Below, in pieces: positions 25,991 to 63,401 of a DNA stretch of 64,000 bases (the first letter of the stretch is position 1; the number at the start of each line of letters is the position of its first letter). Made by a program: the position numbers and the translations under genes. The stretch comes from Malania oleifera. Its lineage: Eukaryota; Streptophyta; Magnoliopsida; Santalales; Ximeniaceae. Location: the NCBI RefSeq assembly GCF_029873635.1, contig NC_080428.1:63421957-63485956 (forward strand). Reading direction: 5' to 3'. The notes below the pieces were generated by a model, which worked only from the letters and a program-made list of their open reading frames with translations, had not been told where the DNA came from and did not search any database.

Positions 25991-26205
25991 AATATACCTG
26001 AAAAAACAGTGTTGGTCTGCGCAATCTTCAAGTTTTACAACATGGAATTAATATGATTGTAGAGGGTATTGCATTGTACATCAATTAAAATGAATGAATA
26101 TATATATACACACCAAGGTACTAAATAATGAACAAATAAATTAATTAAATGGGACTGAAGGCAAAAAATAAAAAAAGAAAAAAAAAGTGACAGTATCCTC
26201 CTCAA

Positions 26206-26804
26206 TTAAGGCATGCTGGAGGTGCACTCTGGAGGGAGACCTTGTGGGAAGCGCTTCGTGTCCGTGCAATAATTGTAAATCATGTAGTTTTACTAAACCC
26301 ATTTTAGTCTTTCTTGACTTGTAGAATCCAACTCTTGAGTGAGCCACGAATTCGCTGTACCAGAGGTTGAAGAAGATGGAGGTGAACTACATGAAGATTC
26401 TCCGGATGACCACACACATGCATCAACATTGTAATTCCTATAGGAGGCGGTCAAGGGTGCTTGGGTCTAGTCTGCCTTCACCTGCCCACCTCTTGTGGCC
26501 CAATCAACCGCATTCCAAAGAATGGAGTATATTCTCATCTGCTGATTTTTAGGAAAGAGAACACCCATTGATTCCATGGTTTTGAATTCCCTAATAGGCG
26601 TGCCATCCACAGAGAAGCTGAAAGAGAGACATGGTCAAGATGTTGAAAAACATATATTTAGATCGAACTAGGTTCGCTGGAACTGTATGTATAATTAATT
26701 TTGTCACATTAGTTGGGAGTACATATACTTACATTATGGCTTGAGGATTCCAGAGGATGGAATAGGTGCGAAAGTCAGCAGTGGTATCAAACCACAAATA
26801 GAAT
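26206..26804 (-). pseudogene. XTH copy B, truncated in exon 2
   Basis: Exon 3 (26206-26617) and the 3' part of exon 2 (26733-26804) of a group II XTH, in the same arrangement as copies C and D. Exon 3 contains in-frame stops: the Trp of the KADWTQAP motif is TAG, and the two Gln codons after LKWV are TAG TAA, so it is dead. Exon 2 alignment stops at about 26804, just inside the region that encodes [10 protein letters not shown]. Athila-type sequence follows, so the catalytic [11 protein letters not shown] box and all of exon 1 are missing. Its 3' flank continues to 25991 and, across the Tekay insertion, to about 5876. Confidence 0.9.
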
Positions 26805-44553: not shown

Positions 44554-44562
44554 GCCCCCTTG
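44554..44562. other. Left 9-bp target duplication of the MULE
   Basis: gcccccttg here is repeated exactly at 56561-56569, directly outside both terminal inverted repeats. A 9-bp duplication is the signature of Mutator superfamily insertion. Confidence 0.88.
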
Positions 44563-44690
44563 GGAGTTTTTTCCCAGATTATCTTTTTTTTTTTAAAAAA
44601 TATATTAAATAATACCTCTTTCAAGGAAATATTTCCCAGAATGACTCTGACGTAATCTCGCTACTCCAAGTTGTGAGATTTACTTTTGAT
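44563..44690 (+). repeat. Left terminal inverted repeat of the MULE
   Basis: It aligns with the reverse complement of about 56435-56560 with few mismatches, including a T-run, an AT-rich patch, 'aatacctctttca' and 'aaatatttcccagaatgact', and ends in the first palindrome. Confidence 0.9.
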
Positions 44691-44892
44691 TGAAGGGCTC
44701 GTGCTGACGCATGGCAAATCTCGCTACTTGGAGTAGCGAGATTTGCTTTGGATACTTAATGCTCTGCCAACCGCCGTTTGACGCGCGGTAAATCTCACTA
44801 CTCCAACTAGCGAGATTTACTTCGGATTTGAAATGACCATCCACCCGGCTATCGACGCTTGGCAAATCTCGCTACTTGGAGTAGCAAGATTT
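44654..44892. repeat. Left subterminal palindrome ladder (four copies)
   Basis: Four imperfect palindromes of the form AAATCTCGCTACT followed by GGAGTAGCGAGATTT occur at 44654-44681, 44716-44743, 44790-44818 and 44864-44892. Spacing is 62-74 bp with semi-conserved spacers (each ends gacgc..gg.aaatctc), so they form a degenerate ~74-bp tandem repeat. Each could fold into a hairpin. A transposase-binding role is inferred only from position. Confidence 0.85.
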
Positions 44893-47387
44893 ACTTCAAA
44901 CTAACCTCGCCCGTTCTTCCTTCTTCCTTGCACGAACAGATAGCTAGTACCTTTGCAGAGCCGAGCACAGGTTACCATTGAAGGAGACTCCAGAGCGCAG
45001 GTGACCGTCGCGGGCTTCAAACCGAGAGCTATATAAACTTGAGATGGGGTAAGTTATATTTTCAATGTTCGGTGCATAGATTTTTAAATTAATTTTATTT
45101 CATCCAAAGTTTTCGATAAGCGGAGAGTGTGAGTTTGTGATTTGTGCTGAAAGATTCATAGATAAGCACTTTTCGTAAGGTTAGTATTTCTTTTTTTTGG
45201 TATTTGAATTTGATTTTTTGCCGAGAATATTTAATTTTTTCCATTCAAACTGTTGTTCAATATTTCTTTTTTTTTTTTTGGGATTGTTGTTTCCATTGTA
45301 AAATGCATTATCTTTCCTGTCCTAGAATTTGTTGAAGTTTCCTCCACTCACTAAATTTGTTTTGAATTTCCATTCACATATTTTGGGTTTTCTAGAACCT
45401 TGAAATTGAAAAAGGAGGCTAAATGTCTATTCTACAAAATTTCCTAAAAAAAATGTTGAAATTTCCATTCACAAATTTTTTTTTCTTCTCCTTTTCGGGC
45501 AAGTTGAAATTGAAAAAGGGTGGTTAATGTCTGTTTTACAAAATTTCCTTTGACATACAAAACATTTGAAATTTATTAAAATATCAGCAAAACTTATCAA
45601 AAATTTGCACCATGGAACAAAATTTCCTTGAGTTTAAAATTTGATTTTTCAAACATCCAATTTAAAAACTCAATATATCACAATTTCTGTAAGACTTTGA
45701 AGAAAATCATTAACGGTTTGATAATCTCTCAGATGAAATTTCAATTTCATTAAATAAATCTCTTGATTAGATGGAAGCGTTTGATGCTCAACCTCTAACA
45801 AGTATTCAACCGTGTGATTATCTCGGACTAATAAAAAGCCCTTAAAAGGATAGGAGTGATAGATAGCTTTAAGCCTCTTGAAATTGTATGTAATACTGAA
45901 CTCATTAACTACAACATTATATGTGTGGAGTAGCTGTATTTGCATAATATATGAATGTTATTTATGTTTATTAGAGATCTTTAATATCTTTCATATAGGG
46001 TAATTAAAAATATTATTTCCTTGATGTTTGTGATTTGTGCAAAAATTGGTAATTATGAACTTTAATTGATGGATGTGTTATGAGAGTAGTTTTACAATTG
46101 TAGTGCTTTATTTTGGATTGATTGTTATTGGGATATATGATTAGAAGCTATACTGAATTGTTGATATGGAATTTTGAGTGCAACCTAATGAATGTATATA
46201 GACTATTGAGATTTTGAAGCTAAAATTTTGCCAAAGTTTCTATAAATTGGACTCCATTGGTTTAAGGAAAATATTCATTTGCCATTCTCGAGGAAATTTT
46301 CAATTTGAGAACTTATTTGAGGAAAATTGCATTTTTCTTTTTAATCTATTGAGCATAATGAAAAGCATTTTGAGTTGGACATTTAAATACCCTTGTGAAT
46401 GTATCTTGAACATATTGATAATATATATATTGTGATAGTTGGTGTGAAATTAGAGCACAGAGCATAATTGCACATGTTTTGTGGAGTTGATCTTGTCCCT
46501 TTTTTTTTAATAAAAAAAAGTAAATTAAATATTTTGAGACACTGAGATATTAAGGACATTGAAGAGTTAAGCAACTTGATGCTTAAGATTATTTCATATA
46601 TTGAAAATCTTTGTAGAAATATGAGCATATTTTTAAAAATGTAGTGGAAATTATCACTAAGAATGAACACCACATTTATTATGTTTGTGAAAATTGAAGA
46701 TCCTCCCCGAATTTATGTATTTTTCACCAATATATCGATATAAATGTACCCCTAGTGTTTACATTTTAAAACACTTGCCATAAGACGATCCCATTCCCAT
46801 TTCATGAATCGAGATGTTATGCGTCCTAAGTAACATTTTTCCAAAAGATCCCTTCAACTCCTTTGAGGATGGCTGTTCAGATCAGCAATAAATCCTCAAA
46901 AGGCTACTGAACAAAATTGAACTTCAAATTAAGTGGCAACCCAACCCATAATAAGGCAGAGTACGAAGTACCATTTTGGAAAAATTACTCTTAAAAGCAC
47001 CATTTCATAGTTCTTTGGATTCTAAGTTGAAGTACCATTTTGGGAAAATCCTAAGTATATGTCATATGGGGAAAATCAATACACATTAATGTTTTAACAG
47101 TTTATTCACTACACTTTTCAATTAATCTATTTGTTTTCTTGGTGGAAATTGAACTTAGCTCCAAACTCTAGAGTTCGTTTATTCATAGACGTTGAATTCA
47201 TCTATTTATTTTCTTGGTGGGAAAGTTAGGTCCAAACTCTAAGTTCATTCATTCATTAGAATTTGTATACATCTATTTGGTTTATAGTTATTAGTTATTT
47301 CATTAAGATATAATTTACACATATCACTTATACATACAATTTTGTCTTGCGTAGTTTTTTTTTTTTATTTCCCGATCGCCGATCTAA
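44893..47387. other. MULE leader / non-coding stretch
   Basis: No coding region is supported on the plus strand. A gggGTAAGT donor-like site at 45049 and a T-rich tract just before the transposase start (about 47355-47370) would allow a 5'-UTR intron, but this is a guess. On the minus strand, about 45670-45945 is an open frame whose YLMKLKFHLRDYQTVNDFL segment faintly recalls copia gag. Without other domains I do not assign it. Confidence 0.35.
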
Positions 47388-50041
47388 ATGGTAGGAAGCT
47401 CAAGTAGTGCTCCGATGACGGTATTATTATATATAGAGGGGAACATCATAACCGGATTAGATGGTGTTAGGTATAGTAGTCGGCTAGTTCGACCTATTCG
47501 AATTGGGCGTAGGTGTAAATTAAGTAAATTATATACGAAGATATATAAAATATTTGCATATTGATCCAAATCAATATGCATTGCGGGCGAGCGCAAGATA
47601 CCCTGCGCGAGAGTTAAATAATACAACCTTCTACGAGGCTGTTCCCATATCAGATGATTATGGGTTGCGCATTGTATTGGATGCACACTGTGTTAGTGAG
47701 ACATATTTAACGATGCAATTGTATGTCGAGACCATTCCTCAAATGGGTGTAATAGTGGTTAGGCAGCCAGACGCGCCCGCGGAGCAATTGGATGAGGTCG
47801 GTGAAGACACCGAACAAACACATCAGGTCGATGTTGGTGCAGAGGTTTGTGCTATGTCTACGGTCGATTTTAACGAATATCCGGGATTGTCATTTAAGCT
47901 ATCGGCGTACGAAGCACCTATTCCTCACACATTTCCGCAGGGAGGTTGCGAAGACATCCTGAGTGCGGAACCAGCATCATGGTTTGCCATTGCGAACGAC
48001 GGATTGGACAAGGGCATGAACATTACGAACGATGTTCATCTTGAAGACGAACACATGCACGAGCAGGAAATGGGTGAAGGGTTAAGTGATGTCCCCGATG
48101 ATGTGAACTTACCCTACCATGACACGGACGACACAACGTTTGATGCGCAATTCATGGGCGAGCTTCCGATGTACGGTCATATTGACCTAGATGCTGTAGA
48201 TTTAACTGCGGTCGATGAGCTTCCTATACGTGTGGCTTGTTGGGAAGAATCCTCTGAGTTGAGTAAGGGGATGCTTTTCAGATTAAAGGATCACCTGATC
48301 GTCGCAGTGCGAATATATCATGCTCGCTCCCACCATGACTTCCACGTGGTGCGATCTACCCCTGAGTTGTGGGTTGCTAGGTGTAAGGACCACGATTACG
48401 CATGAGATTACGTGTCATGTATCAGATGATACACCATTTATTCAAAATCACCCAATATGGTGGTCAGCACACGTTTCTTAATGAACTTCTATCACAAGAC
48501 CATAACCAAATCACTTCGTCCCTCATTGCTGTGAAGATAGTGAATATGATCAAGGGAGATGCGTCGACGTCGATCGCTACATTGAATGAGTTCATAGATC
48601 GTCGATTCGGGTATTCAATCTCTTATAAGAAGGTTTGGTTGGGCAAACATAAGGCAATAGCCCAAGTATGCGGTGATTGGGAGAAATCATATGAAACGTT
48701 ATCGAAATGGATAGAAGCGATGCGCGCGTACAATCCTGGACTATAGTCAGGTGGAGGTCAACTCCTGTTCTAGGTAGCGAGAACAGCGCAACCTTCGTAT
48801 CTGTATTTTGGTCATTCCTAGCATCTATTCAGGGTTTTTGTCACAACCCTACCGTTATATGTGTGGACGGGACACACTTGTACAGTAAGTACAAGGGCAA
48901 ACTCCTTATTGCAACGTGCCCCGATGCAAATAGGCAAATATTTCCCCTTGTATTCGCTATTGTGCAAGAGGAAAGCCTCGACATATGGAATTGGTTTCTG
49001 TGTTGTCTCTGTTTGATTATCGACAGGGACGACATTTGCCTCATATCAGATCGACATCCAAGGATTATCGCGGCGGTGCAGCACAATCCTGATCGGCAAC
49101 CACCATGTGCGCACCACCAATTCTGCCTTCGACATGTGGTGAGCAACTTTAATATAAAAGTGCGGAGTGTCAATATGAAGCGAATGGCTGAGCGAAGGGG
49201 AAGGGAGCATCAGGTGAGAAAATTTTACAAGTGGATGGAGAGGATATTCGATGAGGGTGGAGAGCCAGACAAGTCGTTCTTCGATCAGATCCCTCCTCAT
49301 ATGTGGACTCAGTGCCATGACGGTGGAAAGAGGTATGGAAACATGACCACCAACCTAGTCGAGTGTTTCAAAGCCGTCCTAAAAGGTGCACGTAGCCTTC
49401 CCATAACGGCTCTTTTGCAACTAACATTTTATCGCGTTGCACATTATTTTAATAGCCGACGGGAGGCTGCTCGTAACGCAATATCTAGAGGAAATACATT
49501 GACTCCGCATATATTGCTAGCGATGGAAATAAGGAAGCTGAAGGCGATCGGACAACGAGTCACGACGTTCAACCGGTATAGGGGTACTTTTAGCATCACG
49601 ACTGCACAGATGGGACCCCATAAAGGAAACAATGTCCAAACTTTGAGCATCCAGAGGCACGAATGCTCCTGTGGGAAGTGGCAATCTTTACACTATCCCT
49701 GCTCTCACCTTCTTGCAGCCTATGTCGAGACATGGCTAAATGCAAGCCAGTATGTTGAGCCATATTGGAGCACTACCAAGCACTATGCAACATATGTTGC
49801 CGAATTTCATCCAATTATGCATGAGGCATATTGGCCAACTTCCTCGTTGCCGAAATTGCAAGCAAATCCTGTATATGCTCGACATAAAGGTTGGCTTAGG
49901 AGCTCACGTATACAAAAGGAGATGGATGCCCGGGAAGGTCGGAAAAATATCACGTGTAGCATATGTCGTCAAGAAGGACATAACCTCACTAGATGTCCGA
50001 GAAGGACACAACTTAGGGATGCAGCTGGACCTTCGCACTGA
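47388..50041 (+). pseudogene. MURA-type transposase of the MULE (three frameshifts)
   Basis: This encodes a MuDR/MULE transposase, the DDE enzyme that cuts and joins Mutator ends. The frame starts at ATG 47388 (MVGSSSAPMTVLLYIEGNII). An acidic region follows, then the MuDR DNA-binding part (about 48240-48400; LFRLKDHLIVAVRIYHARSH, LWVARCKDHDY). The catalytic core is at about 48850-49400, with the three acidic positions in ICVDGTHLY, LISDRHPRI and MTTNLVECFKA. A SWIM zinc finger (CSCGKWQSLHYPCSH, about 49666-49710) and a CCHC knuckle (CSICRQEGHNLTRC, about 49955-49995) close the protein. Three frame changes (near 47552, 48402 and 48735) separate otherwise well-conserved segments. The last frame (444 codons) is intact to its stop at 50041. 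Confidence 0.92.
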
Positions 50042-50486
50042 CCTATAACTTATAGGTTAAGGCGATTTGCCTACTCGCAGTCCTCAAGTCTCGACAAGTT
50101 TTCAGCTACCATGCTACTTCCTCCTTCTAAACAAGGTGATTATAAATAAGTTAGCCACATCCATTTACGTGAAATTCATGAACTTGGGCTTGGCTAAGGA
50201 GAGCCTTTTTCCTAGATTCCAAATGTAAGATCCTCAAGCCACTTTCCTTTTTCAGTGAACACATCTCCTTCCATGCTTAATTTGGCTCTGAGCAATTGAG
50301 TCACTGTGTTCATCAATAGAGAATAGTGCATCTTGAGATAAAAACTCGGTGAGATATTTTCATTTGTACACATTTAGGATAAACACTGAGATTTTCGTTC
50401 AGTTCCACCATACAAAGCGGCCGTGACAGGTACTCAATTCTGATGATTTTTATGTTTATGCTTTAAATATGCTGGCTTGTTTGCAG
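50042..50486. other. Spacer between transposase and PMD genes
   Basis: 445 bases without a recognised frame, probably the transposase 3' UTR and the PMD promoter or leader. A tttgcag acceptor-like site at 50481-50487 directly precedes the first PMD-like codons, so an upstream leader intron is possible. Confidence 0.4.
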
Positions 50487-52710
50487 GATTGATCCAGGGT
50501 TGTCCGATACTAGTGTACTAAGTATGGGCGATCGTCACCGGTCCAGTCGGGTGTGGACCGATTCGCATGTTGACGTGTTATATTATTGAGGGGGCAGTCA
50601 GAGCGTACAGGATAGGATAGGCGCAGACCCTCACATTATTGATTGGATACGTGATGCGAGTTTTTATGGGATATATCAAATTGTCCATATCCAGTTGGAT
50701 TAGCATCTTGTGACTGCGTTGGTGGAGCCAATGGAGGCCAGAGACACACACTTTCCACTTGTTGCACGGGGAGGCGACTATATGTTGTGGTGTTGTTTGG
50801 GCTACCAATTGATGGGTTTCCCGTCATTGGTCGTACAGCTAGACCAGTACAGGAGGGAGGCACCGGTCAGGGGGGAGCACTTCGCCGCATATGCAAGAAA
50901 TTGTGAGGAGTGGTGCCTCCAGATGGTGAGCTTGTTGGTGCCCGCATTCACATGCGGTTTCTAGAGGGGGAGATGTTTCACCAACTTCTGGCTGATGCCG
51001 ATGATCACACTGTAACGTGTCACACACGTGCCCTATCGGGAAGTAACGCACACTTGATGTTCCTTCCACTCCTCGCGGAGCGAGCAGAGATACGCCATCA
51101 TAGTTGGGGCTCTGCGACGTTAGCGTGGCTGTACCAGGAGATGTGCTGCGCCGTTGACATTTCCCACTCACAGATCAGAGGAGCACTCTGCTTATTGCAG
51201 GTTTGGATGTGGGAGAGATTCACGTCATTAGCTCCTACGCGCCGTGGTCTCCGGCGTTTTATTTAGAGGGACGAGGACGGACGCCCAATTGACCCAGCTC
51301 CACTCGCATGTAGGTTAGTAACTCCACTTACAATCATTTTCTTGTATAAGTGGTACGTATATTAAGTTGTACTACGTACTGGTGGTTACACCTTGTTAAC
51401 TTACGTTTCATTTTGTACAGGTGGAGGGATCAGTTGTTAGTGCCTAATGTTGTGCAACACACGCCGCCTTGGTACAGATTCGAGCTGGACATGCACCGGG
51501 AGCACGAGGTAGTCTCGGTTATGTGTATTGACAGTATTTTGCATTATTTGGAGATATTCCCGTCCCACCTCTTACATTTACTATATGTATACGAGCAATT
51601 CGTATGGGTGCCCTACAATGATGACATTGTTGCCAACCTACTGACTGGCTATGCAGTTGGGTCGGACCTCTGGGTTGCCCGAGTGCTACTCATATGTTTT
51701 CATATTGTCGAGTGGCATCTCCCAGGCCGAGTGATGTGCCAGTTTGGCTTTCGACAGGACATCCCTAGCCGCTTCTGTACTTTGGGGGTCGATGTACGTG
51801 GGGACGACATGCACGAGATTGATGGTCGCGGTCGGGGGAACACAGATTGGGCTGCCGAGCACGCGATGTAAGTGAGTATGTGGGGACATAGGTGGGAGTA
51901 CATCGTGGAGGGAGTGCGGGCGAACGGCCCGATGGGTCCGGAGGATCCGTATTACACGTGGTATAGGTCGATCACACGTTGCTTCGTAGATAGGACTGCA
52001 GCGAACTACATGAGCCTCGTACGCTTACTCAAATGTATACCTAATTTGTTACCATTTACATTAGCAGTTCAATGTTGTAACCACTATTTTCGTATGCTGC
52101 AGGTTGACGTATTACACCAGGTCGACTTGCTATCATCAAACCCCACTGTGAGCAATTTAGCGAGAGCTGGTTTGGACATTGTCTACAAGGACGGGTGACG
52201 GATCCCTACCCCACGCCAGCCCCCAGCACCACGAGGTGGTCGAGCAGCTCCAGTACAAGGGGGTCGAGCAGTTACCTCCAACCGTCCATCGAGTCTGGCC
52301 TTCTCACTGCCTATTGTACATGAGGAGTACGTGTTTGGGCCATCTGCATCGTATGCCCCATCGACAGCTACTGATTTTGTAGGACCCTCCAGTAGACCAG
52401 CGAATTATCAATCTGACTCTTCCACGACACCGTCGATGTCTTACTTACTAGATGACCCTTTCGATGCGGAGGAGGTGGACGCACCCAGGTTGCCACCTCG
52501 AACTCGTCTAGAGACTACATACGACATAGCTCCCCGTCCGCTTCACCTAGAGATAGATTATCTAGTACCTATGGGCGGAGACGACAGACATGCAGCCCCT
52601 TGATGTGACCGGATGCCAGACGCGGACAAGCAGCCAGGTGAGGGTAGACACAGACGGTAGCCACCCCGACACCGAAGACGACCTCTACGCGGTACCGAGT
52701 AGGCGATATA
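50487..52710 (+). pseudogene. Plant mobile domain (PMD, MAIN-like) gene in the MULE
   Basis: The translated segments fit the plant mobile domain (aminotransferase-like/MAIN family): DPGLSDTSVLSM and DRHRSSRVW (from 50487), then DPHIIDWIRDASFYGIYQIV, HLVTALV and RPETHTFHL-like codons (50620-50760). Next come NAHLMFLPLLAE and WGSATLAWLYQEMC (51050-51150), RWRDQLLVPN and YEQFVWVPYNDD (51421-51630), and YTWYRSITRCFVD (51955-51995). Two GT-AG introns are visible: 51314-51420, which joins AG to G as an Arg codon, and about 52035-52102. The usual ATG before DPG is ATT here. Several stops and small shifts occur in the first exon and one stop follows NTDWAAEHAM, so this copy is decayed. Genic PMD proteins (MAIN, MAIL1) act in silencing and genome integrity; the transposon versions have no established role. 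Confidence 0.82.
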
Positions 52711-52735
52711 TGTATTTGGTAATTACTTCATACTT

Positions 52736-52912
52736 TCATTTGTACATCAGATATATGTTTACAACTTCATTTGTACATAATGTATTTATTCATTATTCAT
52801 TTGTGCATAATGTATTTATTCATGACTTCATTTGTACAGCATGTATTTGTTTTGAATATATCATTTGTACATAATGTATTTGTTTGGAGTATCATTTGTA
52901 CATAATGTAATT
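52736..52912. repeat. Short AT-rich tandem repeats (atttgtacataatgtattt)
   Basis: The 19-base word atttgtacataatgtattt or a close variant recurs about six times at 25-40-base intervals between the PMD gene end and the 149-bp array. No function is recognised. Confidence 0.8.
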
Positions 52913-52968
52913 TTCTTAATTCTGAATCTATAGAGCACCCCTAGGTAAAGTGCCAAGCAGGTATCATT

Positions 52969-53770
52969 TAGTATAGTAATTTGATATATTGAATGTATAC
53001 GAATCTTGTGAATGTAACGTTGTGAACATACTGGTATCAATTGTATTTGAAGAATGTTTTCTTTGCACAGGTGCATGGATGGATTTGCTCAATTTGTAAA
53101 CAGGACTCTGCCGAAATTAGTATAGTGTTGTGATAGGTTGAATGTATACAAATGTCGTGAATGTAACGTTGTGAACATACTGGTATCAATTGTATTTGAA
53201 GAATGTTTTCTTTGCATATGTGCGTGGATGGATATGCTCAATTTGTAAACAGGACTCTGCCGAAATTAGTATAGTGTTGTGATAGGTTGAATGTATACGA
53301 ATCTCGTGAATGTAACGTTGTGAACATACTGGTATCAATTGTATTTGAAGAATGTTTTCTTTGCACAGGTGTGTGGATGGATATGCTCAATTTGTAAACG
53401 GGACTCTGCCGAAATTAGCATAGTATTTTGATAGGTTGAATGTATACGAATCTCGTAAATGTAACGTTGTGAACATACTGGTATCAATTGTATTTGAAGA
53501 ATGTTTTCTTTGCACAGGTGCGTGGATGGATATGCTCAATTTGTAAACAGGACTCTGCCGAAATTAGTATAGTATTTTGATAGGTTGAATGTATACGAAT
53601 CTCGTAAATGTAACGTTGTGAACATACTGGGATCAATTGTATTTGAAGAATGTTTTCTTTGCACAGGTGCATGGATGGATATGCTCAATTTGTAAACAGG
53701 ACTCTGCCGAAATTAGTATAGTGTTTTGATAGATTGAATGTATACGAATATCGTGAATGTAACGTTGTGA
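52969..53770. repeat. 149-bp tandem array (about 5.4 copies)
   Basis: The marker 'gctcaatttgtaaacaggac' starts at about 53086, 53235, 53384, 53533 and 53682, an exact 149-bp period. A partial unit lies on each side. Units are nearly identical apart from a few substitutions. Each unit contains 'tttctttgcacaggtgc', a good match to a plant 3' splice site. The array lies directly downstream of the PMD gene, so the unit may derive from its last intron/exon border. Confidence 0.93.
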
Positions 53771-54656
53771 AATATAATTTAGTCTCTCTATTTATGCTTT
53801 TTAGGTTTTATTTCTACTTTTATTTTCACAATATTAAAAGTAACACCAAACGGGCCGTGAGGAAAAAGCAAAGAATTCAATTAGGTGCAATTCAACTTGA
53901 ATAGGGTGGAAATGTATACTTAGTAAAAGAGCTGCATGATATGATGATTTATCTTTAGAACTACCCAAAAAAAAAAAAATCCTAAAAAGTGTATACTGAG
54001 CCATTTGTATTTCTACAACATTTGGTTCGTTGCATCATTGTCTCCTTCCACTTTCGGATGCTTCAGAATTGTGTTACTCAAAATACAAAATTTTCATGAA
54101 CATAAGAATTTTAATGTTTTAATCACAAACATATTGCTAATAGATTCTTCGGCATGGAGCATTAATCTTTTGTTCATAATAAGATTGATATGGAAAGGAG
54201 GGTATGTCTTATTTTTTAAAATATAATTTAAGATTTTTTGTTAATTATTACCAAGTTGTGAATCTGGATATGAATGAACAACTTCAATGAAAAATTTTTA
54301 TTCTCGATAATGGAATTTGAACTAAACGAGGGAAAACATTGGAATACTTTGGAATCATTGAATGCACAAACCAAATGCCAAGCAAAGGCACAATAGAACC
54401 AATCATAAAATCAGAAATGTAATGACAATCTAAAATGTAGAAAGTTAAACATGAGCCATACAGAAATAATAACCTGCGATCTGTAAAGGAGGAAGTTCTA
54501 TCAACTCCTATTGATAACGGATGCATATATGATGAAGAAGTTAAAGTTAAAAAACATTAAATGCAGGACAGTGTTGTCCCAACTCTATATGCTAGAACAT
54601 GTTAATAACATAGAAGAAGGAAATAATTTACAAATCTCTAAATTTTGTAGGATTCA
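53771..54656. other. MULE interior, no recognised gene
   Basis: AT-rich sequence without a convincing frame. Part of it (about 54290-54656) lies just past the stop codons of the minus-strand captured fragment and could be that gene's 3' UTR. Nothing else is recognised. Confidence 0.4.
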
Positions 54657-55140
54657 TGAAGGGTGAAAGGGTTTTAACATTTGGAAATGTAAAGACAATC
54701 CAAGGGGGGATTGTTGTCTGAAGGAGAAGCAGAATCAGAATTTAGTTTCTCTCAGCTACTCTCTGCCTTCTCTTCATTACTGCCTACCCTACCGAACATT
54801 GAACTACTCTTCTTCTCTGGTGAAATCCAAGGATTCTCTACAGGCTTCAAAATGTCCGTCAGCAGCTTCTGGCCTACTAGCTGAGGCTGCTGCTTATTAT
54901 CTTGTCCTCTCTTCTTTTATGCTGCTGTCGCTGCTGATTTGGCATTTGTTGCTGCTTGTTTTATTCCACCCCCATTTTTTCCCACTTCTGGGCTAGCAGC
55001 TACCACCTCCACCTTAAAATCTTCATCGCTAAAATCATCGTTTTCATGTTCCCCATCAGATATCTCTGTAACAGTTAACGGATTTTTCTGTGCTGCAGCC
55101 CTTGATACTTTCTTCCTCGCTGGCACTTGGGGAATTTCAT
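54657..55140 (-). pseudogene. Captured host-gene tail, topoisomerase II-like
   Basis: On the minus strand one frame reads EIPQVPARKKVSRAAAQKNP, an acidic EISDGEHENDDFSDEDF patch, an Ala-rich stretch ending in a stop, then KKRGQDNKQQPQLVGQKLL, DILKPVENPWISPEKK and SSMFGRVG. This pattern (basic/Ala-rich linker, acidic patch, GQKLL...ISPEKK...GRVG) resembles the C-terminal tail of plant DNA topoisomerase II as I remember it; the identification is not certain. At least two in-frame stops make it non-functional. No catalytic core is present, and it lies inside the MULE on the opposite strand to the transposase. It is most simply a gene fragment captured by the transposon (Pack-MULE behaviour). Confidence 0.45.
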
Positions 55141-55229
55141 GTTAATTCCCAACATCAAGAACAATAAGTTTTGAAATGAGCAGAAGACTCGATAAGTATA
55201 ATTGTAGTAGTCATTGGAGGAGTAATGAC

Positions 55230-55930
55230 TAGTCTATCTAATCTGAGATCATCAGGGTATTTCCTTACTTGGACAAATGGTACGGTTTGAAGCAAATTGG
55301 CCAGGGCGATTGCTAATCAGAGATGGATTCTAGGGGATCCGAGAGCTATGGTTGAATTCCTTTTCCCTGGGATTCTCTTTAATCACTCGGTGTGCCTAAT
55401 TTCCCTGTTTGAATAGGGGTGTCTGGGAAGACGATCTTTAAAAATTTTCAACATGCGGACTCTAAACCATAATTTTCTCGACATTATCAAACAAGGTTGG
55501 GATGCACAGGTCCAGGGCTTTGAGCAATTCAAATTGGTGAGGAGAACCAGATTATGTCAAGATGTGCCAACCACCTAGATGCAGTGCTTCAACTTTTTGA
55601 GGAATGGGACCTCAATCATTCTAGCTCATCCATTTGCTATAACTTCTGGATAACTAAAGGAACTACGGTTCCTTGGTCCATGGTGGTTTGGAAGAGTGGA
55701 AGTACCCCTATACATGCTTTCACTCTTTGGTTGGGAATTATAAGGAAACTACCTACTTGTGATAGGCTTATTGGGTTTGAAGGAAACCTGTATTGTTCCT
55801 TTTGGTTGGTAAAAGAGTTGGTCTGGCCTCTATTGTTTATCTCATATGGAATGCCAGAAATCGGAAAAGGTTTGAAGGAAAATTCGTATCCCCAATGGAG
55901 TTGATTGTGACAATTTAGAAATATATATAC
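55230..55930 (+). pseudogene. LINE (L1-like) debris
   Basis: About 55240-55400 reads like the end of an L1 endonuclease (FTWTNGT, then an SEMDSRGSE-like segment with stops). About 55554-55904 is an open frame resembling the zf-RVT region after plant LINE reverse transcriptase (VVWKSGSTPIHAFTLWLGII, LPTCDRL and a GNLYCSFWL segment), although the usual Cys/His spacing is incomplete. The RT domain that should lie between is missing, so this is an internally deleted or composite fragment inside the MULE. Confidence 0.6.
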
Positions 55931-56290
55931 ACAGTATTAGGCCAAAAGGCCCCTAGATTGCTTAGGCTCTCTTAAGATCCTGAGTGTTGACTTTATTGCG
56001 TGTAATTTTGATGGGGCTCATTTCCCTCCTATATCTACCTAGTGTTCCATGTAAATACTCATTTTGATCAATATATTTACTTTTCGATCAAAAACACAAT
56101 ATGATAAATTGATGGATCATCGACTCTCTTTGTGCTACAGATAGCAGCAATAAATGGAACATAACATTTAAATATTTCCTACTCAATAATAAAATATATA
56201 AGATTTTCCTATTTAATTAAATATAATTACTGTATATTTATAGTGTATGATTGTTATATATTACATTTTAACTAAATTACAAATTATAAA
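55931..56290. other. AT-rich MULE interior, no gene
   Basis: No coding potential is seen. About 55930-56090 may be a LINE 3' UTR (ends tttttgatcaaaa), but no poly-A tail or target duplication is clear. Confidence 0.4.
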
Positions 56291-56296
56291 TTAAGC

Positions 56297-56474
56297 AAAT
56301 CTCACTATTTTGAGTAGAAAGATTTTCTTAAATCCCGCTACTCCAAATAGCGATATTTAAAGGCGAGGCCCTATTCTTGCAAAGACGCGTGGCAGCAAAC
56401 TCTCACTACTTGGAGTAGCGAGATTTGTTTAATGTCAACACGTGGCAAATCTCGCTACTTGGAGTAGCGAGATT
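56297..56474. repeat. Right subterminal palindrome ladder (four copies)
   Basis: Palindromes related to those at the left end occur at about 56297-56324 (decayed), 56330-56358, 56398-56426 and 56447-56474. Spacing is shorter (33-68 bp) than on the left. The outermost copy is the best preserved and lies within the terminal inverted repeat. Confidence 0.82.
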
Positions 56475-56560
56475 ACGTCAGAGTCATTCTGGGAAATATT
56501 TCCCTGAAAGAGGTATTATAATATATTTAAAAAAAAAAAGATAATCCAGGAAAAAAACTC
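56435..56560 (-). repeat. Right terminal inverted repeat of the MULE
   Basis: The reverse complement matches 44563-44690. It ends 'ccaggaaaaaaactc', followed at once by the duplicated gcccccttg at 56561-56569. Confidence 0.9.
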
Positions 56561-56569
56561 GCCCCCTTG

Positions 56570-56724
56570 GCCTCCACGCAAAATCTTTTACTTGTACGAT
56601 CAAGACTTCAAGGGAATAGCTCCTCTGATTATGAGTCGTAAGTCAATAGGATCATAATTTATATAAATGTTATATGATGTAGCAATTTACAAACAAAACT
56701 AAAAACTTAGAAGGGGAGAGTAAA
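56570..56724. other. Spacer between the MULE and XTH copy C unit
   Basis: 155 bases with no gene or recognised repeat; possibly the original intergenic sequence next to the MULE target. Confidence 0.4.
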
Positions 56725-57158: not shown

Positions 57159-57869
57159 TTAAGGCATGCTGGAGGTGCACTCTGGAGGGAGACCTTGTGG
57201 GAAGCGCTTCGTGTCCGTGCAATAATTGTAAATCATGTAGTTTTGCTGAACCCATTTTAGTCTTTCTTGACTTGTAGAATCCAACTCCTGAGTGAGCCAC
57301 GAATTCGCAGTACCAGAGGTTGAAGAAGATGGAGGTGAACTACATGAAGATGCTCCGGAGGACCACACACAAGCATCAGCAATGTAATTCTTGTAGGAGG
57401 CGGTGAAGGGTGCTTGGGTCCAGTCTGCCTTCACCAGCCCACCTCTTGTGGCCCAATCATCCGCATTCCAAAGACTGGAGTATATTCTCATCGGCTGATT
57501 TTTAGGAAAGGGAACACCCATTGATTCCATGTTCTTGAATTCCCTAATAGGCGTGCCATCCACAGAGAAGCTGAAACAGAGACACGGTCAAGATGTTAAA
57601 AAACATAAATTTAGATCGAACTGGGTTCGCTGGAACTGTGTATATAATTTATTTTGTCACTTTAGTTGGGAGTACATATACTTACATTATGGCTTGAGGA
57701 TTCCAGAGGATGGAATAGGTGTGAAAGTCAGCAGTGGGATCAAACCACAAATAGAATTGCTGCTCCCTATTGCCTTTGCCTTGGCCGAAAACATTGGTAT
57801 GAAGAATGTAGGGATCTCCACTCAAGTTCCCCAAGAATTCGAAGTCTATCTCGTCGTGGGTCGATCCTA
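57159..57869 (-). pseudogene. XTH copy C, missing exon 1 and the start of exon 2
   Basis: Exon 3 (57159-57570) is fully open and encodes [20 protein letters not shown] through ECTSSMP and a stop. Exon 2 (57686-57869) is open and keeps the catalytic [11 protein letters not shown] box, the NLS glycosylation site and the [20 protein letters not shown] segment. The intron between them (57571-57685) has GT-AG ends. At 57869 the homology stops 12 bases short of the expected exon 2 start, and copia integrase sequence begins. There is no promoter, signal peptide or exon 1, so it cannot make a normal enzyme. Exon 3 differs from copy D by only a few residues (DACVWSS here, DACVCSS in D), so truncation is recent or gene conversion has kept the copies alike. 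Confidence 0.92.
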
Positions 57870-61387: not shown

Positions 61388-62553
61388 TTAAGGCATGCTG
61401 GAGGTGCACTCTGGAGGGAGACCTTGTGGGAAGCGCTTCGTGTCCGTGCAATAATTGTAAATCATGTAGTTTTGCTGAACCCATTTTAGTCTTTCTCGAC
61501 TTGTAGAATCCAATTCCTGAGTGAGCCACGAATTCGCTGTACCAGAGGTTGAAGAAGATGGATGTGAACTACATGAAGATGCTCCGGATGAACACACACA
61601 AGCATCAGCATTGTAATTCCTGTAGGAGGCGGTGAAGGGTGCTTGGGTCCAGTCTGCCTTCACCAGCCCACCTCTTGTGGCCCAATCATCCGCATTCCAA
61701 AGACTGGAGTATATTCTCATCGGCTGATTTTTAGGAAAGGGAACACCCATTGATTCCATGTTCTTGAATTCCCTAATAGGCGTGCCATCCACAGAGAAGC
61801 TGAAACAGAGACACGGTCAAGATGTTAAAAAACATAAATTTAGATTGAACTAGGTGTATATATAATTAATTTTGTCACATTAGTTGGGAGTACATATACT
61901 TACATTATGGCTTGAGGATTCCAGAGGATGGAATAGGTGTGAAAGTCAGCAGTGGGATCAAACCACAAATAGAATTGCTGCTCCCTGTTGCCTTTGCCTT
62001 GGCCGAAAACATTGGTATGAAGAATGTAGGGATCTCCACTCAAGTTCCCCAAGAATTCGAAGTCTATCTCGTCGTGGGTCGATCCTTGGGACGACAACTG
62101 CAGCACATACTTGATGCGTTAGTTAAACAAATCAACATTCCCAGGATGGTGATAAAGCTAAATTTTATCCTACCACTGAAATATTCCACATGTTTATTCC
62201 AAAATATTAATTAAAATTAAAAGCTGATTGAAAAGCTTGGACTAACTACTTACATAGTAGGCAGTGACGGTGCCTGCGGAGTTACCGGGGACAAGCTTGA
62301 GCTGCATGTCGATCTTGCCGAATAGGTACTCCTGCTTGGATTGAAAACCAGAGCCAGAGGCTTTGTCGAGGGAAAGGGTGAGAAGGTCGCCATTGTTGAG
62401 AATTTGAGCACGACCGTCTCCCCAAGTGATGTCAAAGTTCTCGTAGAAGTCGGTTGCAGACGAGAGGAGTACTACTGAAGAGCCGAACATAAGAGAGAAC
62501 AGCAGCATCTTCACAACATTTGAAGAAGAAAGCAGAGACGAAGCCATGGACAT
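61388..62553 (-). CDS. Xyloglucan endotransglucosylase/hydrolase (intact copy D)
   Basis: A secreted GH16 enzyme that cuts xyloglucan in the primary wall and rejoins the new end to another chain or to water. Three exons: 62553-62254, 62097-61904 and 61799-61388. Introns of 156 and 104 bp have GT-AG ends in phases 0 and 2, giving about 301 residues (family usually 280-300). Residues 1-33 form a signal peptide. The catalytic [11 protein letters not shown] box is at about 108-118 (nucleophile Glu110, acid/base Glu114), directly followed by the conserved NLS N-glycosylation site. The C-terminal XTH domain has [13 protein letters not shown] and ends in [18 protein letters not shown]. Motifs place it nearest group II (XTH22-25-like). 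The start could also be the ATG at 62547. One oddity is DACVC where the family and copy C have DACVW, adding an unpaired-looking cysteine. No stop or frameshift is seen. Confidence 0.93.
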
Positions 62554-62690
62554 GGTTGTACTAAGCACAGGGAGGAATTGGAATTTGTTGGTACCGACAA
62601 TACTGGGATTAAGAGGAAGGATGGTATTGGAGTGTGTTTGGGATGGAAGGTGTGTTGGGTTTTTTATACGAGAGGGAGGGAGGGAGAAGA
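62554..62690 (-). promoter_or_regulatory. XTH copy D core promoter and leader
   Basis: On the minus strand a TATAAAA box (plus-strand ttttata, 62662-62668) lies about 110 bases before the start codon. This fits a TATA box with a leader of roughly 80 bases. A (CTC)-rich pyrimidine stretch lies just upstream (about 62669-62690). Confidence 0.65.
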
Positions 62691-62769
62691 GGAAAGCGGC
62701 ATGAAGCTTCAGTTCAGCTGTGGACAGTTGGCATATGAATAGGGAAAAGTATAATAAAAGAGTTGGCAA

Positions 62770-63401
62770 AATGGAAATAGCAGTTGGCGTTATCTTTTAA
62801 CTCTGTAACGCGGTTTGGCATCATTTCCAGTTTTGGACACCCACTGGCTCTGGACTCGAGAGATAAAATTTTCTCTATGAAAAAAACCAGGGCCGTGGGC
62901 AACCCAATTAAAAGGCGAAACTGCAAGCAACAAAGCTGGGTTTGGCTGATATTCCCTTTTTTCCTTCTGTTAAAGACGAGACTTCCTTACCTACTTCAAA
63001 TTTTAATGAAGTTCAACCAAATTTATTTGCACTGTATTATACAGTTTGCTCAAATATTATATTTTCTGGTAACCACAAGATTTATTCCTAAAAATATGCT
63101 GTATGTAGCAACTTTTCATTTGAGCTAATACCTTCACACATAAGGTAGAATGGTTGAATGGCGTTCCCATTATTCCTCATGGATTAATTGATTTTCAAAG
63201 AGTTTCGAATACCATCATTTCAAATTTAGATAGCTTTTTTTTTTTTTTTTTTTTTGTAAGTGAGAATTTATAAAGAATGTCATAAAATATTTCAAAATCA
63301 ACATTATCAAACAAGTTTTGCAATGTTGGAGTAAAAAATACTTGCATGTAATTTTTTCGATCTCTAGGGAAGATTTTCCAAGTCGTGAAAACATATGATT
63401 T
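62770..63401. other. XTH upstream region, no further gene
   Basis: No gene is supported. About 62980-63040 is the parent of the inverted scrap at 60752-60809. A T-run of about 20 lies at 63235-63256. Confidence 0.5.

Follow-up and report, generated by a model that had tools for sequence, protein, structure and literature searches.

The stretch analysed here, called the window throughout, comprises 64,000 nucleotides of the Malania oleifera genome (contig NC_080428.1, positions 63,421,957 to 63,485,956, forward strand). It contains a Mutator-like element (MULE) of 11,997 bp (44564-56560) that carries two genes, one for a transposase and, downstream of it, one for a plant mobile domain (PMD) protein related to MAIN. 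Comparison with copies elsewhere in the genome indicates that the PMD gene is inherited together with the transposase gene and is a selected part of the element. The features of the window copy are listed in Table 1.

The element is bounded by terminal inverted repeats, which pair at 86% over a core of 98 nt (44584-44681 with 56447-56544) and at 94% over 31 nt at the tips. Of 20 fetched copies, 18 share the tip GAGTTTTTT at this edge, the exceptions being loci L024 and L027, and the base preceding it is G in only five of those 18. Window base 44563, a G, was assigned to the target-site duplication and not to the element because the exact 10-bp duplication ends there. Duplications of exactly 10 bp flank all four complete copies examined (the window copy and three others), within the 9-11 bp of MULEs. 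Long terminal inverted repeats, a further mark of these elements, were found in the window and, at 98.7% over 150 nt, in a copy on C7. The MULE domain (PF10551) and the SWIM finger (PF04434) of the transposase scored above the Pfam cut-off both in the window and in L031, the intact copy used for comparison. A sequence-only reading of this DNA had placed the element at 44563..56560, with terminal inverted repeats, a perfect 9-bp duplication, and a DDE transposase and a spliced MAIN-like PMD gene in one orientation. Our analysis recovered the inverted repeats, the right edge and both genes, with their Pfam domains on one strand and four PMD exons. The duplication is perfect but 10 bp long (GCCCCCTTGG on both sides), and the base taken there as the first of the element belongs to it. 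The decay of the two genes was not remarked in that reading.

In the transposase gene of the window, Pfam identified the MULE domain (1.5e-15) and the SWIM finger within 48695-50038. The CCHC knuckle and the D, D and E residues were picked by eye and are presumed to be such from their motifs. Alignment to the L031 transposase, which is a single intact frame of 884 amino acids starting at ATG, revealed three frameshifting indels. No sequence relative of the transposase was found in PDB at E up to 0.1. The gene ends with a TGA stop in 28 of 29 aligned copies; in the exception, L023, the match ends short of the gene end. PF10536, the PMD domain, was identified in two exons of the window PMD gene (50907-51263, 8.7e-15; 51350-51868, 5.2e-15) and in two exons of L031 (1.9e-53 and 7.1e-21). 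The L031 gene is intact, with exons of 839, 88, 420 and 579 bp, GT-AG introns and a product of 641 amino acids; its tail had no Pfam match, and PMD exon 1 had no sequence relative in PDB at E up to 1. The window copy is dead, since frameshifts disrupt both its transposase and PMD genes, and the PMD gene, in addition, contains stops and lacks one splice site.

Table 1. Features of the Mutator-like element in the window (positions counted from the first base of the window).
Feature	Position	Strand	Remarks
Target-site duplication, left	44554..44563	.	GCCCCCTTGG; exact 10-bp match to right side
Left terminal inverted repeat	44564..44744	+	tip GAGTTTTTTCC; runs into first palindromes
Left array of four 29-bp palindromes	44653..44892	.	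like AAATCTCGCTACT-nnn-AGTAGCGAGATTT; starts 44653, 44716, 44790, 44864; 0-3 mismatches
MULE transposase gene	47388..50041	+	MULE domain, SWIM finger, C-terminal CCHC knuckle (presumed); decayed
PMD (MAIN-like) gene	50524..52702	+	decayed; 8 in-frame stops and 2 frameshifting indels relative to L031
PMD exon 1	50524..51313	+	homology to L031 exon 1; boundary read from sequence
PMD exon 2	51421..51508	+	homology to L031 exon 2; boundary read from sequence
PMD exon 3	51599..52018	+	acceptor before exon (intron 2) AA, not AG, in window copy
PMD exon 4	52103..52702	+	Pro/Arg-rich tail outside Pfam domain
Tandem array, 149-bp unit, 5.4 copies	52968..53771	+	directly after PMD gene
LINE-like (long interspersed nuclear element) remnant	55524..55904	+	profile match; zf-RVT, just under Pfam cut-off
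Right array of four 29-bp palindromes	56297..56475	.	like AAATCTCGCTACT-nnn-AGTAGCGAGATTT; starts 56297, 56330, 56398, 56447; 1-4 mismatches
Right terminal inverted repeat	56398..56560	-	inverted pairing with 44564-44744
Target-site duplication, right	56561..56570	.	GCCCCCTTGG

Related copies were searched for in one genome of 1.49 Gb. First-look candidates numbered 2130 for the left end (40 scored), 2094 for the transposase (94 scored) and 1719 for the PMD exon (150 scored). From the 20 best end matches, window excluded, 10 kb was taken inward from the end. Transposase and PMD genes were found in the same order and on the same strand in 17 of these 20 copies. Among the 94 scored transposase matches, at least 66 have a scored PMD match 1.29-3.86 kb downstream on the same strand, a lower bound since only 150 PMD matches were scored, and 65 of these 66 spacings fall between 1.29 and 1.54 kb. 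Four more pairs within 20 kb show another placement or opposite strands. Seven of the 28 unpaired transposase matches were fetched (L016, L030, L033-L036 and L038), and all seven have a PMD gene. The same is true of all ten copies, among the 94 matches, in which the transposase is intact (frame of at least 883 amino acids, no stop). In the 25 copies measured, the PMD gene lies downstream in sense at 264-738 bp from the transposase gene. In the window, the start of the PMD gene is preceded by an acceptor-like TTTGCAG. The 149-bp unit array was matched 3' of the PMD gene, at varying length, in all 17 two-gene copies of the end sample (L009, L011-L016, L018-L022 and L024-L028). In the window array, a splice-like TTTGCACAG/GTG is present in four of five units.

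Three of the 20 copies are without a full PMD gene. L010 has neither gene, L017 has no transposase and keeps the 3' part of the PMD gene, and L023 has a transposase; two of the three have thus lost the transposase too. The check proposed with the sequence-only reading, namely whether both genes recur in copies with these ends, came out in its favour (17/20), and the copies without PMD that it named as counter-evidence are a minority. A PMD gene nested as a separate insertion with its own boundaries was ruled out, because many copies have PMD at one and the same position (17/20 by end sampling, 10/10 of those with an intact transposase); one boundary-defined element carries both genes, as that reading had held.

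Selection was analysed on alignments of 28 PMD copies and 29 transposases, window included, reduced to 25 and 26 by dropping L030, L034 and L038 (L023 was kept among the transposases). Changes were counted on FastTree trees with parsimony states, and the ratio of replacement to silent change per site was calculated for internal branches, taken as mostly copies that went on to transpose, and for terminal branches, taken as decay of dead copies. On internal branches the ratio is 0.33 for the PMD domain (bootstrap 0.25-0.45) and 0.38 for the transposase (0.30-0.48; 0.37 with all 29 copies). A control made of spacer and introns, counted on the transposase tree in three arbitrarily chosen frames, gave 1.08, 0.96 and 1.24 (intervals 0.73 to 1.74). 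Without CG and CHG changes the ratios are 0.29 for PMD and 0.38 for the transposase, and PMD on the transposase tree gives 0.37. Constraint is weaker on the PMD tail, for which its own tree gave 0.70 and the PMD-domain tree 0.53. Terminal branches gave 0.73 for PMD and 0.72 for the transposase, and 0.84, 0.66 and 0.92 for the control. Only the internal-branch values carry the selection argument, because the terminal ratios of the genes are not clearly apart from the non-coding control. Third codon positions account for 148 of 268 internal changes versus 434 of 1232 terminal ones (p=1.8e-9), and new stops on terminal branches number 78 in the PMD domain and 109 in the transposase. Distances between copies in the two genes are closely correlated (25 copies; Mantel r=0.938, 0 of 5000 permutations as high), and the two trees have 14 of 22 splits in common. 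These patterns indicate that purifying selection has acted on the PMD domain as strongly as on the transposase and that the PMD gene has been inherited together with the transposase. With an internal ratio of 0.33, where the non-coding control gives about 1, the PMD gene is a selected part of the element.

Assembly quality bears on these counts. In the 3' half of the L034 PMD gene, dense random indels start abruptly in sequence that is otherwise about 99% identical; this stretch is probably unpolished assembly, as are, by analogy, those of L030 and L038. Recombination with another subfamily was considered for L030 and L034 (less so for L038) and set aside, with no better donor among the fetched loci. 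Intact recent copies may be undercounted, given this noise.

The complete copy around L031 (C7:8793965-8808219; 14,255 bp) encodes both intact proteins between 150-bp ends that are 98.7% identical, and it is flanked by an exact 10-bp duplication, TGCAATCTTC. Between L035 and L031 the transposase differs by 0.5% and the PMD domain by 0.6%. Duplications of exactly 10 bp also flank the derivatives L010 and L017. The family appears to have moved recently, because the ends of the C7 copy are so alike, L035 and L031 are nearly identical and the duplications are exact. The right 2.3 kb of the window element (53772-56060, with the LINE-like remnant) is at least partly common to L010 and L017, and this segment had no match in the C7 copy; the 3' parts therefore differ between subfamilies.

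Arrays of a 29-bp palindrome lie at both ends of the element. A scan with up to six mismatches found four at each end in the window and none in the remainder of the window outside the element ends; the C7 copy has five and six, L017 three and three, and L010, a gene-less derivative of 2.25 kb, still keeps two and two. The left end bears two to five palindromes in all 20 end-sampled copies. The second and third left units vary by 0.074 and 0.079, versus 0.128 and 0.183 for the spacers (a comparison of values with no significance test); the first unit is unremarkable (0.101), and the terminal 20 bases are equally conserved (0.080). Exact palindrome sites number 736 in the genome, and a reversed-pattern control gave 0. 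The sites listed number 50 and are all from C1; for 29 of them a scored transposase or PMD match lies no more than 20 kb away, where 0.4 would be expected. The arms are retained and the three core bases are variable, a pattern that would suit a protein site. An RNA hairpin role found no support: the 82 palindromes compared, taken from 21 left ends, show 88 changes confined to one arm and two that affect both arms, of which one preserves complementarity. The arrays are candidate cis targets of the PMD protein or of the transposase.

Two host genes were compared with the element PMD. L042, which we take to be MAIL2-like, shares 36% identity with it in the part aligned (325 columns), and the intronless L041, presumably PMD-B-like, shares 25% over 348 columns. 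In these pairwise comparisons with host genes of presumed type, the element gene is closer to part of L042. A phase-0 intron is shared (slash, intron position: LQPND/VEWLPY in the host, HREHE/FVWAPY in the element), whereas a host intron after LLQ is absent in the element gene and the first intron of the element is absent in the host exon. An old origin from a genomic PMD-C gene, rather than recent capture, fits these data, because the identity is only 36% and the intron layout is partly shared. L041 is one of three strong PMD matches clustered within 65 kb (G000:C1:147136336-147200599).

Pack-MULEs are non-autonomous MULEs in which gene fragments replace the transposase. They resemble the present element in carrying host-derived coding sequence, but here a transposase is present, and a whole gene, under selection, lies beside a full transposase gene; the element is not a Pack-MULE. 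Host MAIN, MAIL1 and MAIL2 (PMD-C) are represented in our comparison by L042, presumably MAIL2-like; one intron is shared with the element gene, and one further intron on each side has no counterpart on the other.

PMD is described as confined to angiosperms (PMC8616336), where several groups of MULEs have it in most members, in sense or antisense (PMC6446971). The PMD-bearing RepBase MULEs (MUDR, MUDRAVI2, MDR, MULE-Monocots, VANDAL) resemble the Malania oleifera family in the SWIM/CCHC transposase, the terminal inverted repeats and PMD; their duplications are of 9-10 bp where given, and half of the VANDAL members have PMD and/or DUF (PMC6446971). An antisense PMD characterises most or many members of several of these groups (PMC6446971), whereas in the present family it is downstream and in sense. 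MULEs of grasses and Amborella carry PMD-C, for which an anti-silencing role was speculated (Ikeda et al. 2017, PMC5418596), an idea repeated later (PMC8616336); they share a MAIN-like PMD with the present family, but there it is fused with the transposase (PMC5418596), while here there are two genes with a kept stop (28/29). MAIN and MAIL1 are reported to act with PP7L in silencing (PMC7156037, PMC8616336). VANDAL21 (Hi), with its protein VANC and the repeated motifs that VANC targets, is likewise a MULE that has genes besides its transposase and short motifs repeated in non-coding sequence (PMC5735166, PMC10398659). VANC is an experimentally tested anti-silencing protein (PMC5735166, PMC10398659), whereas for PMD such a role would follow from its relatives.

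Overall, the window holds a decayed copy of a two-gene Mutator-like family, apparently autonomous, and our analysis suggests that the PMD protein of this family is a trans-acting helper, most likely one that counters silencing. We give this reading a probability of about 0.6, as the best explanation of an intact two-gene structure, joint descent and purifying selection, from which we infer the helper role and its counter-silencing action. The element PMD protein would act in trans to help the element survive; it may compete with or redirect the host MAIN/MAIL1-PP7L complex, and with that complex diverted the transposase could be expressed. Counter-silencing is considered the likeliest action because the host relatives MAIN and MAIL1 work with PP7L in silencing. 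The sequence-only reading had offered escape from silencing or assistance in transposition as alternatives; selection favours a service to the element, which may be either of these. The window copy can do neither, because both its genes are broken.

Several observations weigh against a helper that counters silencing. Selection establishes that the PMD gene is used, not which use it has. L023 has a transposase and no PMD within the 5.4 kb fetched beyond it. Among the ten copies with an intact transposase, only L031 has a clean PMD gene; in L029 the sole defect is one stop, at codon 633 of 641, and the PMD genes of L032, L033, L035, L036 and L037 have stops or frameshifts, while those of L030, L034 and L038 contain the indel-dense stretches attributed to assembly noise. 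A transposase that is kept while PMD decays is compatible with a helper acting in trans but also with partial dispensability, which weakens the case. Parsimony also placed eight new stops of the PMD domain and six of the transposase on internal branches. These branches must therefore include some decay or recurrent changes, either of which would push the ratios towards 1.

The PMD protein could instead be a transposition cofactor, not an anti-silencing factor, that enables cutting by the transposase, either through pairing of the ends or through binding to the palindromes. Accessory proteins are found in other plant DNA transposons, for example TnpA of En/Spm. Palindromes at both ends (eight in the window, 11 in the C7 copy, four in L010), the lower variation of left units 2 and 3 than of the spacers, and a symmetric site, which suits a dimeric protein, all agree with this role. 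However, we know of no DNA-binding activity of PMD, exon 1 had no sequence match in PDB, and the zinc-finger transposase would be a simpler reader of the palindromes; a cofactor is a possible but rather unlikely explanation. It is doubtful, and advanced only tentatively, that the PMD protein, perhaps as a dimer, reads the 29-bp palindromes and so keeps MAIN/MAIL1-PP7L or DNA methylation off the element, a sequence-specific form of anti-silencing in which a protein from the silencing pathway of the host would have been turned against it. If true, the problem to which VANC is the answer in VANDAL elements would have been solved a second time, independently. Read-through or splicing might join transposase and PMD in a single fusion protein, for which there is a precedent in grasses and Amborella (PMC5418596), and the spacing, the gene order and the acceptor-like TTTGCAG fit such a product. 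It is nevertheless improbable, given a TGA stop kept in all but one of the aligned transposases and a spacer whose change on internal branches, counted together with that of the introns, is like that of neutral DNA.

Two further accounts would remove the PMD gene from the service of the element. Host PMD-C genes act in silencing (PMC5418596, PMC7156037), and the selection could serve the host if element PMD copies were now host genes or regulators. This is very improbable, because PMD distances track those of the transposase across dispersed copies (r=0.938, 14/22 splits) and because the ratio is higher on terminal branches (0.73), the pattern of an element gene and unlike that of one fixed host locus. 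Least credible of all is PMD as inert cargo, taken from the host by one master copy. MULEs do capture pieces of genes (PMC6446971, PMC5418596), but the internal ratio of 0.33 against about 1 in the control refutes this in the main. A full multi-exon gene with intact GT-AG introns in a recent copy argues the same way, and 36% identity to the host relative suggests long residence. Inert cargo would regain credit only if exchange with host genes had produced the ratio as an artefact.

The insertion lies about 600 bp from a duplicated C-terminal exon of an XTH-type gene (57159-57587, 95% identical DNA). The gene itself (GH16 and XET_C) is on the minus strand at 61388-62796, and a retrotransposon frame (SH3_retrovirus), which we take to be copia, lies between the two. 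A third XTH-related stretch is present at 25991-26804 (92%, by DNA comparison alone).

MULEs that carry PMD genes are already published, and a two-gene structure is ordinary for plant MULEs (PMC6446971, PMC5418596). A measured selection test on the PMD gene of a MULE was not found in the open-licence literature searched. The selection measurement is the useful addition of this study to the known association of MULEs with PMD. Capture alone could be an accident; selection on PMD across the family, as the substitution ratios indicate it, answers the first half of the 2017 suggestion quantitatively. With a recent complete copy and, in the palindromes, a candidate cis target, the action of the PMD protein becomes directly testable.

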